Source of the DNA: a virus
Length of the DNA: 37,226 bases
Reading direction: 5' to 3' (one strand)
Virus record (IMG/VR): IMGVR_UViG_3300021108_000005
Span: 1 to 37,226 of that record
The first letter of the stretch is position 1. Each line of letters opens with the position of its first letter. This document shows positions 15,181 to 19,200 of this stretch, piece after piece. The notes under the pieces are model-generated. The model made no database searches. It was not told the DNA's origin and saw nothing but the letters and a program-made list of their open reading frames with translations. A program made the position numbers and the translations under genes.

Positions 15181-15219
15181 AGGAACTTCTCCTGACTTCA
15201 ATCCTTACAGTCGTTACCA

Positions 15220-15234
15220 GTGGAACAGTTCCAC
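15220..15234. promoter_or_regulatory. 15-bp palindrome in the RHH gene leader
   Basis: GTGGAACAGTTCCAC is a perfect palindrome around a central A. It lies about 12 nt downstream of the minus-strand -10 box (15246-15251) and 40 nt before the RHH start. Position suggests an operator for autoregulation, or an mRNA hairpin. Confidence 0.5.
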
Positions 15235-15245
15235 CGCACACGAGA

Positions 15246-15303
15246 AGAATACAACAAAATAACTTAGAAGTCAATAGACTTCTGTAGAAGTCGTGCATAT
15301 AAT
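15246..15303. promoter_or_regulatory. Divergent promoters sharing an inverted-repeat operator
   Basis: Leftward: TTGACT (minus strand, 15269-15274), 17 nt, TATTCT (15246-15251). Rightward: TAGACT (15275-15280), 17 nt, TATAAT (15298-15303). The inverted repeat AGAAGTC-AATA-GACTTCT (15266-15283) covers both -35 boxes, and a third half-site AGAAGTC lies at 15286-15292 in the rightward spacer. The leftward -10 also overlaps CGAGAAGAATACAA (15241-15254), a 12 of 14 match to the operator found at other promoters. One bound repressor would block both promoters. This is the likely lysis-lysogeny switch. Confidence 0.8.
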
Positions 15304-15368
15304 CAGATCAGTTCGCTAGAAATGGGTTCTACCGAACTACACAACTTAGCTCCCAGAAGGTTATTTCG

Positions 15369-15754: not shown

Positions 15755-15795
15755 TTCTAATCCGTTTGTCGCAGGTTCGAATCCTGCCGGGCGTA
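15755..15795 (+). other. attP: attP core: 3' half of tRNA-Arg(TCT)
   Basis: From the anticodon loop (TTCTAA) to the discriminator base this segment reads as the end of a tRNA-Arg(TCT). The T-arm GCAGG-TTCGAAT-CCTGC is at 15771-15787 and the acceptor 3' strand CGGGCGT plus A is at 15788-15795. No matching D-arm or acceptor 5' strand occurs upstream, and the 5' anticodon stem is broken, so it is not a full tRNA. Phages that integrate into a tRNA gene carry exactly this 3' part to rebuild it. It lies 139 nt before the integrase. Confidence 0.8.
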
Positions 15796-15934
15796 CTTTT
15801 TCGTAACTATCACAGATACAGAGGCTTAAAGATGTGCTATGTTTATTTGCTCCTTCCAATCTTACGCAAAACTCATGGATATATAGTTGTACCAGTACAC
15901 CTTTATTGCGTCTCAGACACCTGTTGTTGAACAA

Positions 15935-16963
15935 ATGGGACGCAAGAAAAACACGGTTCCAACCCATTTAATCCGGTCTGATACCGGTATGGGGTTCATC
16001 AAATGGGAACTACAACTTTACTACACCTCTATCGACCCGATAGAGGCGAACCGGCGATACCTGGAGTATTGCCGGAACATCGACATCTACGGCCACCCTG
16101 TGCCGCCAACTTTTGCCGTCGGTATCATGGTGGCCGATGTGGCCACAAGGTATCACGTACACATCGTTAAAACCAAACCGCCGGAATCGAAAGAAGACCG
16201 CCCGATAGGCGTGGCCATGCGCTGGCTCGCCCAGGTCGATTGTCCTGCCGACAAGTTTACGCCCGCCCGACTGGTGGCCTTGCGCCAGCTCTGGGTGGAC
16301 GACGGGCAATCTGTCAGCACTATCGCCAAGAAACACAACTACATCTTGAATGCGTTCCGGTGGGCCGCCCAGATGGACTTGGTACCCGCCACCGTCTGGA
16401 GCGCCCTCCAGACCGTCCAAAAACTTAAGCCAGGTCGCTCTGCCTGTAAGCAACCCAGAAAGGTTCATCCTGTGGAACGTGCTACCATCGAAGCCGTTAT
16501 GCCATTCCTATCCGCCCAGGTGGCCGCCCTGGTCGAGTTCCAGTGGTTAACCGGCTGCCGGAGCGCTGAAGCCTTAACCGTCACCACCGCCGAAATACAA
16601 GGCAATATCTATAGCCCCGCCAAGCACAAAAACGCCTTCCGTGGAAAACGTCGGGTGATCTTCCTTGGCCCCAAATCGCGGGAGCTGGTCACCAGGTGGG
16701 CTACCGATGACCCGAATAAACCCTTGTTCGCCCAGATGACAAGCTGTGAATATGGCAAGCGCATCAAGCGAGCCTGTAAACGTGCCGGTGTTGCTCGTTT
16801 CTGCCCTCACCAGATACGTCACGCCCATGGGACGCTGGTACGTGAACAATACGGTTTAGACGCTGCCCAGGCTGCGCTTGGCCACTCATCTGCCCGCACT
16901 ACCGAGATTTACGCCGAAGTCTCCAAGGGATTGGCTCAAAAAGTTGCCGACGATATCGGGTGA
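15935..16963 (+). CDS. int: Tyrosine recombinase, phage integrase
   Basis: This 342-aa integrase (from ATG 15935) recombines attP with the host attB. Catalytic residues are visible: Arg in WLTGCRSAE (about 209), a Lys candidate in AKHKN or FRGKR (about 231-240), H-x-x-R in PHQIRHAHG (about 292-295), His in ALGHSSART (about 317) and the nucleophile Tyr in TEIYAEVS (about 326). The N-terminal half is the core-binding SAM-like domain. A TTG start 16 codons upstream gives a less likely extension; neither start has a strong ribosome site, so expression may be low. The tRNA-derived attP is immediately upstream. Confidence 0.93.
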   Translation: MGRKKNTVPTHLIRSDTGMGFIKWELQLYYTSIDPIEANRRYLEYCRNIDIYGHPVPPTFAVGIMVADVATRYHVHIVKTKPPESKEDRPIGVAMRWLAQVDCPADKFTPARLVALRQLWVDDGQSVSTIAKKHNYILNAFRWAAQMDLVPATVWSALQTVQKLKPGRSACKQPRKVHPVERATIEAVMPFLSAQVAALVEFQWLTGCRSAEALTVTTAEIQGNIYSPAKHKNAFRGKRRVIFLGPKSRELVTRWATDDPNKPLFAQMTSCEYGKRIKRACKRAGVARFCPHQIRHAHGTLVREQYGLDAAQAALGHSSARTTEIYAEVSKGLAQKVADDIG

Positions 16964-16988: not shown

Positions 16989-17039
16989 TTGACTCAGTTC
17001 TGTTCTTCTCGTATATTTAAGTTGTCGAGAAGAACAGAA
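16989..17039 (+). promoter_or_regulatory. Promoter flanked by a 42-bp inverted-repeat operator
   Basis: TTGACT (16989-16994), 17 nt and TATATT (17012-17017) form a strong promoter for the 17.07-19.14 kb operon. TTCTGTTCTTCTCG (16998-17011) fills the spacer and its exact reverse complement CGAGAAGAACAGAA (17026-17039) lies just after the start region, 14-bp arms with a 14-bp centre. A protein bound to both arms would clamp the -10 box. The same 14-mer occurs at other promoters. Confidence 0.85.
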
Positions 17040-17068: not shown

Positions 17069-17290
17069 GTGACGACTTTGACCCCAAAGATTCAGCCGAC
17101 CGTAACAGAACTGCTTAAGATGTCAGCCCAGGAACGCAAGCTGTGGCGTAACGATCTGTGCCGCCGCGAGATGGAGCTGGCCGATCATTGCGATTACTTA
17201 TCTGGCTGCCCCACGGGCAACGATAACGAACTGCTGATGGAGCTTTTCACCGTGACCGAACTGCTGGAAGTCATCCGCACAATTTCCTAA
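17069..17290 (+). CDS. Small helical protein of unknown function
   Basis: This 73-aa protein starts at GTG 17069 with AAGGA 8-9 nt upstream. It is mostly helical and charged: VTELLKMSAQERKLWRNDL, RREMELADHCDYL, and ELLMELFTVTELLEVIR. Two Cys and one His in DHCDYLSGC could bind a metal but the spacing is not a known motif. It is the first gene of the methyltransferase-deacetylase operon. No family is recognised. Confidence 0.65.
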   Translation: MTTLTPKIQPTVTELLKMSAQERKLWRNDLCRREMELADHCDYLSGCPTGNDNELLMELFTVTELLEVIRTIS

Positions 17291-17324: not shown

Positions 17325-17699
17325 ATGTCTACCGTCACCCGCTCCAAAGTCTCTGCCAAGTCCGCCGAAAAAGCCCGCCGCAAGGCGTACGTCGTACTCT
17401 ATCAGCATACCGGTCGCGACTATGCCGATATGTACCGCCGCAAGCGTAACGGCTATATACACGAAATCGACTTCCGCACTGTGCGGATGTATCTTGAATT
17501 TGCTACGCGTTCGGCGAAATGCATAGTGGACAACTTGCCATACGACCGCAATGGACGCCGCCGCTGGCTCGGAATGCTTAGCAAGGAAAAGGCCCGCGTT
17601 CGTTACGCCCTGGCCGAAATTGCAAAGGATCGTTTGGCTGGCCATGGTTTATGGCGTCCCATTGGCGGTGACGTTCCATTCTCGGAAGGTGGTGTATGA
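17325..17699 (+). CDS. Basic protein of unknown function
   Basis: This 124-aa protein is strongly basic: SKVSAKSAEKARRKAYVVL, then YADMYRRKRNGYIHEIDF, a helix VRMYLEFATRSAKCIVDNL and DRNGRRRWLGMLSKEKARV. High Arg/Lys content suggests nucleic-acid binding. GAGGAA lies 8 nt before its ATG. Its stop overlaps the methyltransferase start (ATGA), so the two are probably translated together. No family is recognised. Confidence 0.65.
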   Translation: MSTVTRSKVSAKSAEKARRKAYVVLYQHTGRDYADMYRRKRNGYIHEIDFRTVRMYLEFATRSAKCIVDNLPYDRNGRRRWLGMLSKEKARVRYALAEIAKDRLAGHGLWRPIGGDVPFSEGGV

Positions 17700-18289
17700 T
17701 GATCCTTAGTCACTCCACCAGTCAGGATGGAATCATTCAGTCGATCATGGATCTTCACTGCAATGGTTCTATCCAGTGCGATGCGACCTACGGCTTCGGT
17801 GGGTTCTATAAGAATCTGCCGAAGCCAGAATTAAAGTTTGATATTTCGCCACAAGTGGAAGGCGTCGTTCAGTCGAGTTCCGAAAACCTTCCGGTGCCAG
17901 ATGCCAGCCTGAAGTCGATCATGTTCGACCCACCGTTTTTGACATACATCAAACAGGGTCGGGAACATAATTCAATCATGGCAAAAAGGTTCGGCGGATA
18001 CTACACTTATGACGAGCTAGAAGATCATTATATCCACTCGATCTCGGAGTTCTACCGCAAGCTGGAACGCAATGGCGTTCTGGTATTCAAGTGTCAAGAT
18101 ATCGTCCACAACCACAGATTACATCCGACGCATATCAAAGTCGTATTGTGGGCCGAATCTGAAGGATTCAGGCTGACAGATTCTTTTGTGCTGGTTGCTG
18201 ATAGGCGTATGCCGGTAGGGCAAGGCAGAACGCAAAGACACGCCCGTATTGCCCATTGTCATTTTTTGGTCTTCACAAAAAAGGGTTGA
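17696..18289 (+). CDS. DNA methyltransferase (N6-adenine/N4-cytosine type)
   Basis: This 197-aa methyltransferase has an AdoMet-site-like segment CDATYGFGGFYKNL (about 28-41) followed by the catalytic motif IV, SIMFDPPFLTY (DPPF about 79-82), and later strands RNGVLVFKCQDIVHN and CHFLVFTKKG. DPPF/DPPY is diagnostic of amino-group DNA methylases. The short length leaves little room for a target-recognition domain, as in compact phage Dam-like enzymes. No restriction enzyme is adjacent, so it is a solitary methylase, plausibly protecting phage DNA or affecting gene control. The stop is 4 nt before the deacetylase start. Confidence 0.8.
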   Translation: MMILSHSTSQDGIIQSIMDLHCNGSIQCDATYGFGGFYKNLPKPELKFDISPQVEGVVQSSSENLPVPDASLKSIMFDPPFLTYIKQGREHNSIMAKRFGGYYTYDELEDHYIHSISEFYRKLERNGVLVFKCQDIVHNHRLHPTHIKVVLWAESEGFRLTDSFVLVADRRMPVGQGRTQRHARIAHCHFLVFTKKG

Positions 18290-18293
18290 TACC

Positions 18294-19142
18294 TTGAAAG
18301 TCTTCTACAGTCCGCACTATACCAGTGCCGCTTATGCGTTTGACACCACCCGCAAGGCTGCCCACGTGGCCGCGCTGGTGGCCAAGAACCCGACCATGAA
18401 GCTAGTGGCACCGATACCCGCCACAGATGAACAAATCAAGCGGTGCCACGATAGCACCTATATGACCGCAGTGGCCACTGGTCACCCGCGACAACTGGCC
18501 GAATCGAGTTGTTTCACATGGTGTAACCAGACTTACAAGGCTGCCACTTACACCAATGGCGGTGTCATCAGTGCCGCAAAACAGGCTGTTAAAGTCGGTG
18601 TAGCGGGCACCCTGTCAAGTGGACTACACCACGCCCGTCGTGACCATGGCGCTGGTTTCTGTACGTTTAACGGGCTGGCTATGGCCGCCATGGACGCTAT
18701 CGAAGTCGGGTATGCCGAACAGGTCTTGATTATCGACTTTGACGCCCACTATGGCGACGGTACCGCCGACCTGATTTCCGCGCGTCGCCGTATTCGTCAG
18801 GTGGACGTTTCGACCTACCGGATACCGACGAACTCGACTTACCTGGACGAGTGCCGCAAGGCGCTGGAGAGTGTGGAAGACCACGATTTTGACCTGGTGC
18901 TGTATAACGCCGGTATGGATCCCCATGAAGACTGCCGACTTGGTGGTCTGAAAGGCGTCACTACCCGCGTGCTATCCGAACGTGACCAGCTTGTTTTCGA
19001 GTGGTGTCAAGATCGTCGGTCACCCGTGGCGTTTACCCTGGCGGGTGGTTATTCAGGCGACAAGTTCAGCCCTGACGAGCTGGCCCGCTGCCACTATAAT
19101 ACGTGTCTGCAAGCGGTGGCCGCTTACCAGATTCACTCATGA
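18294..19142 (+). CDS. HDAC/AcuC-family zinc deacetylase
   Basis: This 282-aa protein of the arginase-deacetylase fold has all catalytic features of class I/II histone deacetylases and bacterial acetoin-utilisation or acetylpolyamine hydrolases. The active-site His pair is in SGLHHARRDHGAGFC (His112, His113). Zinc ligands are in IDFDAHYGDGT (Asp150, His152) and NAGMDPHED (Asp209), and the transition-state Tyr is in LAGGYS (Tyr253). It should remove acetyl groups from lysine side chains or small amines. I start at TTG 18294 (AAGGG upstream, 4 nt after the methylase stop); upstream codons overlap the methylase. The last gene of its operon, before a strong terminator. Such an enzyme is rare in phages; the substrate is unknown. 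Confidence 0.92.
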   Translation: MKVFYSPHYTSAAYAFDTTRKAAHVAALVAKNPTMKLVAPIPATDEQIKRCHDSTYMTAVATGHPRQLAESSCFTWCNQTYKAATYTNGGVISAAKQAVKVGVAGTLSSGLHHARRDHGAGFCTFNGLAMAAMDAIEVGYAEQVLIIDFDAHYGDGTADLISARRRIRQVDVSTYRIPTNSTYLDECRKALESVEDHDFDLVLYNAGMDPHEDCRLGGLKGVTTRVLSERDQLVFEWCQDRRSPVAFTLAGGYSGDKFSPDELARCHYNTCLQAVAAYQIHS

Positions 19143-19166
19143 AACACCTTGGGGACGTTGGTGTAA

Positions 19167-19200
19167 AGCTCTGCCGTAGCGTTTCCGGTAGGGCTTTTTT
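19167..19200 (+). terminator. Rho-independent terminator
   Basis: AGCTCTGCCG (19167-19176) pairs with CGGTAGGGCT (19186-19195) over 10 bp with two G-U pairs, then six T residues. It ends the rightward operon 25 nt after the deacetylase stop. The leftward tail operon converges here; on that strand only three T residues follow the stem, so it may work weakly in both directions. Confidence 0.85.

Follow-up and report, generated by a model that had tools for sequence, protein, structure and literature searches.

The complete genome of a temperate phage contains, at the end of a short operon, a gene for an enzyme of the histone deacetylase family, which raises the question of what such an enzyme may do for a phage and whether it works together with the methyltransferase encoded directly upstream. 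The locus lies in IMG/VR record IMGVR_UViG_3300021108_000005, whose 37,226 bp were analysed as a whole and are referred to here as the window. The record is a complete temperate phage with no join to host DNA, because its ends are 99-bp direct terminal repeats and it carries genes for a terminase (1.6e-31), a portal protein (a weak match), tail proteins and an integrase. A tail tube protein, a tail fibre, a DNA primase and a Dda-like helicase are encoded as well. The region was checked for host DNA wrongly joined to the phage, a possibility raised when the sequence was first read; the terminal repeats and the phage genes flanking it on both sides rule out a host-phage chimera. A search of a phage collection with the first 25 kb of the record found no near relative, and a pattern-based scan of IMG/VR found only two terminase relatives, both distant.

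The operon and the elements around it, in order along the window, are the following.

15887..16963, plus strand: tyrosine integrase (PF00589 at 2e-15, phrog_1), upstream of the operon.
16989..17017, plus strand: promoter-like site TTGACT-17-TATATT, matching the consensus at 10/12 positions and serving the four-gene operon.
16998-17011 / 17026-17039, no strand: perfect 14-bp inverted repeat with a 14-nt spacer, overlapping the promoter; a candidate repressor operator.
17069..17290, plus strand: small ORF of 73 aa, the first gene of the operon, with no family match.
17325..17699, plus strand: small basic ORF of 124 aa with no family match, overlapping the methyltransferase start by 4 bases.
17696..18289, plus strand: solitary amino-methyltransferase of 197 aa with a DPPF motif, phrog_24333.
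18294..19142, plus strand: predicted class IV-like (HDAC11-like) zinc N-deacylase of 282 aa with a TTG start.
19165..19200, plus strand: intrinsic terminator, a 12-bp stem and a T run, separating the operon from the convergent structural genes.

The deacetylase gene closes a series of four genes read from a single promoter that the candidate operator overlaps; it starts 4 nt past the methyltransferase stop and precedes the terminator. The inverted repeat 16998-17039, of which shuffled sequences are expected to hold 0, occurs once in the window, and no exact copy was found in other IMG/VR contigs; the terminator has a fold z of -3.7, with 0/200 shuffles equally stable. The promoter-like site, the overlapping repeat and the terminator thus lend in silico support to the tightly operated promoter described in the sequence-only reading, and an early-type, operator-controlled operon is supported. 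The span named in that reading, 17696-19142, does contain both genes, but it covers these two alone, whereas two more small ORFs belong to the operon. Two other stretches on the integrase side of the operon may be mentioned here. The plus-strand stretch 15765-15800, just 5' of the integrase gene, looks by eye like a tRNA 3' end (GGTTCGAATCCTGCCGGGC) and is probably the attP core; ARAGORN found no whole tRNA gene in the phage record, and an Rfam search gave no match. At 15200-15320, divergent promoter-like sites flank the palindrome AGAAGTCAATAGACTTCT, which sits between a minus-strand ORF of 81 aa (ribbon-helix-helix-like by eye) and a plus-strand ORF of 114 aa, an arrangement that is possibly a lysogeny switch.

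The deacetylase gene is real: the 282-aa frame runs from TTG 18294 to a stop at 19142, and its product matches PF00850 (Hist_deacetyl) with an E of 9.5e-36 and 124.1 bits against a curated cut-off of 27.9. Since the N-termini of homologues align with it at the first residue (MKVFYS or MKVYFS), the TTG start is right. Searches of PHROGs v4, NCBIfam and a defence library with the protein gave no match. In an alignment with Vibrio cholerae HdaH (VcHdaH) and 83 relatives, every catalytic residue is kept (H112, H113, D148, D150, H152, D155, D209 and Y253), as had been proposed at first reading. The His pair, the zinc ligands and the Tyr are invariant across the 84 sequences, and H112/H113, D150/H152/D209, G121-F122-C123 (GFC) and G251-G252-Y253 (GGY) are all present and invariant or nearly so. 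The analysis thus supports an intact zinc deacetylase-fold protein, predicted to be active, in a real and complete phage.

Which branch of the family the enzyme belongs to was addressed by a global overlay of its AlphaFold model, which holds no ions (AF2, pLDDT 96.7, pTM 0.94). VIA-align superimposed the model on VcHdaH with a Z of 38.8 and 1.9 A over 276 residues, and on Leptospira HDAC11 with a Z of 36.3 and 2.0 A, while class I, class II, HDAH and APAH chains found by Foldseek and VIA-align reached a Z of 31.9 or less. The top two matches of a profile search were VcHdaH (9gkv) and chrHDAC11-1/A (9rje); PDB entries 9RJE and 9RJD are chrHDAC11-1/A and Leptospira HDAC11, respectively (PMC13325672). 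Judged by its nearest neighbours rather than by a class-wide tree, the modelled enzyme is closest to the class IV (HDAC11-like, cluster 5) branch. Because the model matches class IV deacylases best, we regard the enzyme as probably HDAC11-like rather than of the AcuC or polyamine type considered in the sequence-only reading, although no AcuC chain was among the structural matches listed, which excludes nothing about AcuC. No acetoin genes were found among the ORFs of the operon.

Class IV itself is divided: clade B enzymes, Leptospira HDAC11 included, are long-chain deacylases that act on lysine peptides, while clade A enzymes have no peptide activity and nonpeptidic substrates were proposed for them (PMC13325672). 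VcHdaH (cluster 5b, clade A, PDB 9GKV/9GKY) is like the window enzyme in fold and catalytic residues at 29% identity, but it is bacterial and not phage-borne, it has Tyr rather than Leu111 as foot gatekeeper, and its loop after the strand QVDVST is longer by about 17 residues. Both lack the RPP foot-pocket motif, which is replaced by SGGYHH in VcHdaH and by the open foot-pocket motif SSGLHH in the window enzyme, where a small residue also precedes GGY (LAGGY). Cluster 5 enzymes lack RPP and hold fatty acids, and the replacement of RPP is a trait tied to long-chain deacylases (PMC11532494). Leptospira interrogans HDAC11 (clade B, PDB 9GZ5/9RJD; 25% identity) shares the zinc site and the FD of loop 1 with the window enzyme, whereas its HPFD motif, its L2 Glu and its Phe gatekeeper are unmatched there. 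The HPFD motif of loop 1 (described in PMC13325672), Glu at L2 and a Phe or Tyr gatekeeper mark clade B, and in their place the window enzyme has YAFD, Cys73 and Leu111; the class IV FD (F16, D17) and a conserved Lys four residues on (K21) are kept. Clade A is marked by an L1 Arg, an L2 Gly and a Thr or Ser gatekeeper. At the L2 position, an equivalence read solely from the sequence alignment, Gly is found in 78/84 sequences, so that the subfamily shares a Gly-type L2 with VcHdaH, but the window enzyme has Cys and, at the position of the Arg, Ala15. Y14-A15 of L1 and the gatekeeper L111 match neither clade, and the enzyme fits neither cleanly because the loop-2 acid of clade B is absent and the gatekeeper is Leu.

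With odds that we put slightly above even, the enzyme is a single-domain zinc N-acyl amide hydrolase near class IV, the product of a stand-alone accessory gene of a temperate phage, which deacylates a host N-acyl compound or an acyl-lysine. Zinc would be held by D150, H152 and D209; H113 (with D155) and H112 (with D148) would activate the water and the leaving group; and Y253 would polarise the acyl carbonyl. S109-G110-L111 and A250-G251-G252 would line the foot pocket that receives the acyl product. The acyl groups, probably of medium or long chain, would be cleaved off a host N-acyl compound or an acyl-lysine residue in a protein of the host or the phage. In this scheme we infer the catalytic activity, the acyl-chain preference, the substrate, the timing and the benefit to the phage. 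A nonpeptidic N-acyl compound or an acyl-lysine is the most likely substrate, and we lean to the former because L2 appears to lack a backbone-clamping acid, as in class IV clade A. Since clade A enzymes have no peptide deacylase activity (PMC13325672), the reaction could also be something else. It is possible that the enzyme retunes the host.

The strongest of the alternatives, although we would give it rather less than an even chance, is that the enzyme acts on proteins as a lysine deacylase or deacetylase: by undoing the acylation of a regulator, a metabolic enzyme or a defence protein of the host, it would reset host physiology, either in the lysogen or at an early stage of infection. It draws on the high structural score of Leptospira HDAC11, a clade B enzyme that deacylates lysine peptides (PMC13325672), on the operator control of the operon, and on the precedent of phage sirtuins, which were proposed to deacetylate host proteins (PMC5107563). 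The substrate-positioning L2 acid is nevertheless absent, as in the peptide-inactive clade A, and no match to the acetyltransferase family PF00583 was found in the window, although the acylation could come from an enzyme of the host. PF00583 exceeded the cut-off in 4/37 records of HDAC-encoding phages, and we set aside the reversal of phage-encoded acetylation on these grounds.

It is improbable that the enzyme is an N-acetylpolyamine amidohydrolase (APAH) and thereby supplies phage replication with free spermidine, as was shown for giant-virus APAHs. Viral APAHs of the HDAC fold are active on N-acetylspermidine (PMC9992855), and the fold is the same, with APAH chains aligning at a Z of about 31; class IV chains rank higher, however (38.8 and 36.3), and no polyamine gene is among the recurring neighbours identified. 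The giant-virus enzymes (Tupanvirus, Klosneuvirus, Hyperionvirus), whose activity was demonstrated, are virus-encoded like the window enzyme but belong to the APAH branch, are 345-354 aa long and come from viruses of eukaryotes, and the viral APAHs identified are all from Imitervirales (PMC9992855).

The view that enzymes of this kind are very rare in phages did not hold. Two profile scans of IMG/VR gave 117 and 161 confirmed stretches, with relatives on over 100 contigs, although in collections of isolate phages homologues are few (7/50,697 records, some of them duplicates). These include Rhodococcus phage E3 gp202, Microbacterium phage Magritte gp204 and two huge-phage genomes. E3 gp202, already annotated as a 'putative histone deacetylase protein', is a phage-borne member of the same subfamily with 48.6% identity to the window enzyme (49% over 96% of the query), but it has DAHCGGGT in place of DAHYGDGT, i.e., has lost the dyad Asp, and its FD loop is longer; its gene adjoins tail genes, with no methyltransferase of the phrog_24333 family there. 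A terminase was found in 31/50 records checked; the others are perhaps fragments, with possibly a few of bacterial origin. Seven IMG/VR contigs (L004-L008, L010 and L011) were excluded as probably bacterial DNA that had been classed as viral: next to the HDAC gene they encode two tandem proteins of ~1010-1040 aa, weakly similar to each other, which by size and pairing were read as RND pump subunits, and no terminase match was found in the record of L006. We found no studies of zinc deacylases in tailed phages in the open-access literature searched, and the phage versions are apparently a large, undescribed group.

Clustering of the collected relatives at 70% identity left 66 viral and 40 bacterial groups. 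A maximum-likelihood tree, for which variable columns were removed, has a starred clade of 72 rows that includes the window, and within it a further starred, well-supported clade of 37 rows holds 33 viral and 4 bacterial ones, as counted from the tree drawing. The window lies outside this phage-dominated clade, in a zone without resolved order that it shares with E3 and bacterial genes, and this placement makes it seem that phages took up the enzyme more than once and that one lineage diversified in them. By path the closest rows to the window, whose branch is long, are L078 and E3. That L078 and L120, which lie on bacterial contigs and have no recognisable phage genes around them, are among the nearest relatives, and that the long branch is not firmly placed, could be expected if the gene were a transient host-derived passenger with no role in the phage. 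This too we consider improbable: the active site is intact despite ~50% divergence, the gene is part of a regulated operon, and the starred phage-dominated clade shows that phages have kept such genes for a long time.

The same alignment revealed a coupled change at the active site. D155 of the window enzyme occupies the position of HDAC8 D183, which we take to be the Asp that pairs with the general-base His. This dyad Asp is replaced by Gly in 69/84 sequences, and an [FY]D motif in a loop of 24-46 residues is found in 67/69 of the Gly rows and in 1/15 of the rows with Asp or Asn; the 67 cases are not 67 events, since most Gly rows share ancestry. This co-occurrence suggests that the [FY]D loop may compensate for the lost Asp. 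The window, L078 and L120 keep the Asp and have loops of 13-15 residues; a clade of these three was neither recovered nor rejected (AU p 0.47). We tentatively propose, at somewhat less than even odds, that the window enzyme belongs to a so far undescribed subfamily of zinc deacylases, class IV-like and enriched in phages, which many unrelated tailed phages would have retained for a role in host takeover or metabolism. In this subfamily the Asp-to-Gly change would accompany an [FY]D loop that may provide a substitute acid or reshape the pocket, with the window enzyme as the Asp-retaining, short-loop form.

No constant partner gene was found across the phage homologues, which fits a self-sufficient accessory enzyme. 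Genes for ThyX, class II ribonucleotide reductase, an SNF2 helicase, a phosphatase-like protein, ParB and PAPS reductase recur only in sub-groups. The phosphatase-like protein, a weak match to dual-specificity phosphatases with an HCHAGISRS motif (L260:7451-7996), is encoded directly 5' of the HDAC gene at 30 viral loci (8 HDAC groups). In five phage groups (for instance L169:9472-11194), HDAC is followed by PAPS-reductase-like and ParB-like proteins, the latter recognised by eye. On Nocardiaceae chromosomes (L080:5069-5713, L086:5114-5755) HDAC follows a von Willebrand A-like protein, also recognised by eye (LVFLLDRSGSM).

The upstream neighbour (17696-18289, plus strand; METHYLTRANSFERASE) matches phrog_24333 'DNA methyltransferase' at 1.2e-63 and has DPPF at residues 78-81, in agreement with the solitary DPPF methyltransferase of the sequence-only reading. 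Its model (AF2, pLDDT 86.9) has Rossmann methyltransferase matches; DNA as the target is likely but not settled, since the model matches N4/N6 DNA methyltransferases and Trm11 tRNA m2G enzymes about equally. Relatives are found at 62 viral loci and in mycobacteriophages and Pseudoalteromonas phage H103, whose gp51 belongs to the same small phrog_24333 family with 48.5% identity to the window protein, but no deacetylase is annotated near it. That the two enzymes form one functional system, for example for joint DNA or protein modification or for counter-defence, as their adjacency within one operon had suggested, is highly unlikely: PF00850 was found in 0/49 other methyltransferase records and a full-length phrog_24333 protein in 0/49 other HDAC records, two of which have weak short matches; a first test for co-occurrence had given 0/12, and many records are fragments. 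The pair is rejected as a general system, and the methyltransferase looks like a chance neighbour of the deacetylase in a pairing that is local.

The better account is that of a subfamily of class IV-like deacylases, enriched in phages, whose active site has undergone a coupled change. Bacteria use the acylation of proteins and small amines as a general layer of control, and to our knowledge few natural substrates have been established for class IV deacylases. The phage toolkit includes zinc deacylases besides sirtuins, and the many phages that keep such enzymes provide a test bed in which phage need, timing and host range can reveal the substrate.
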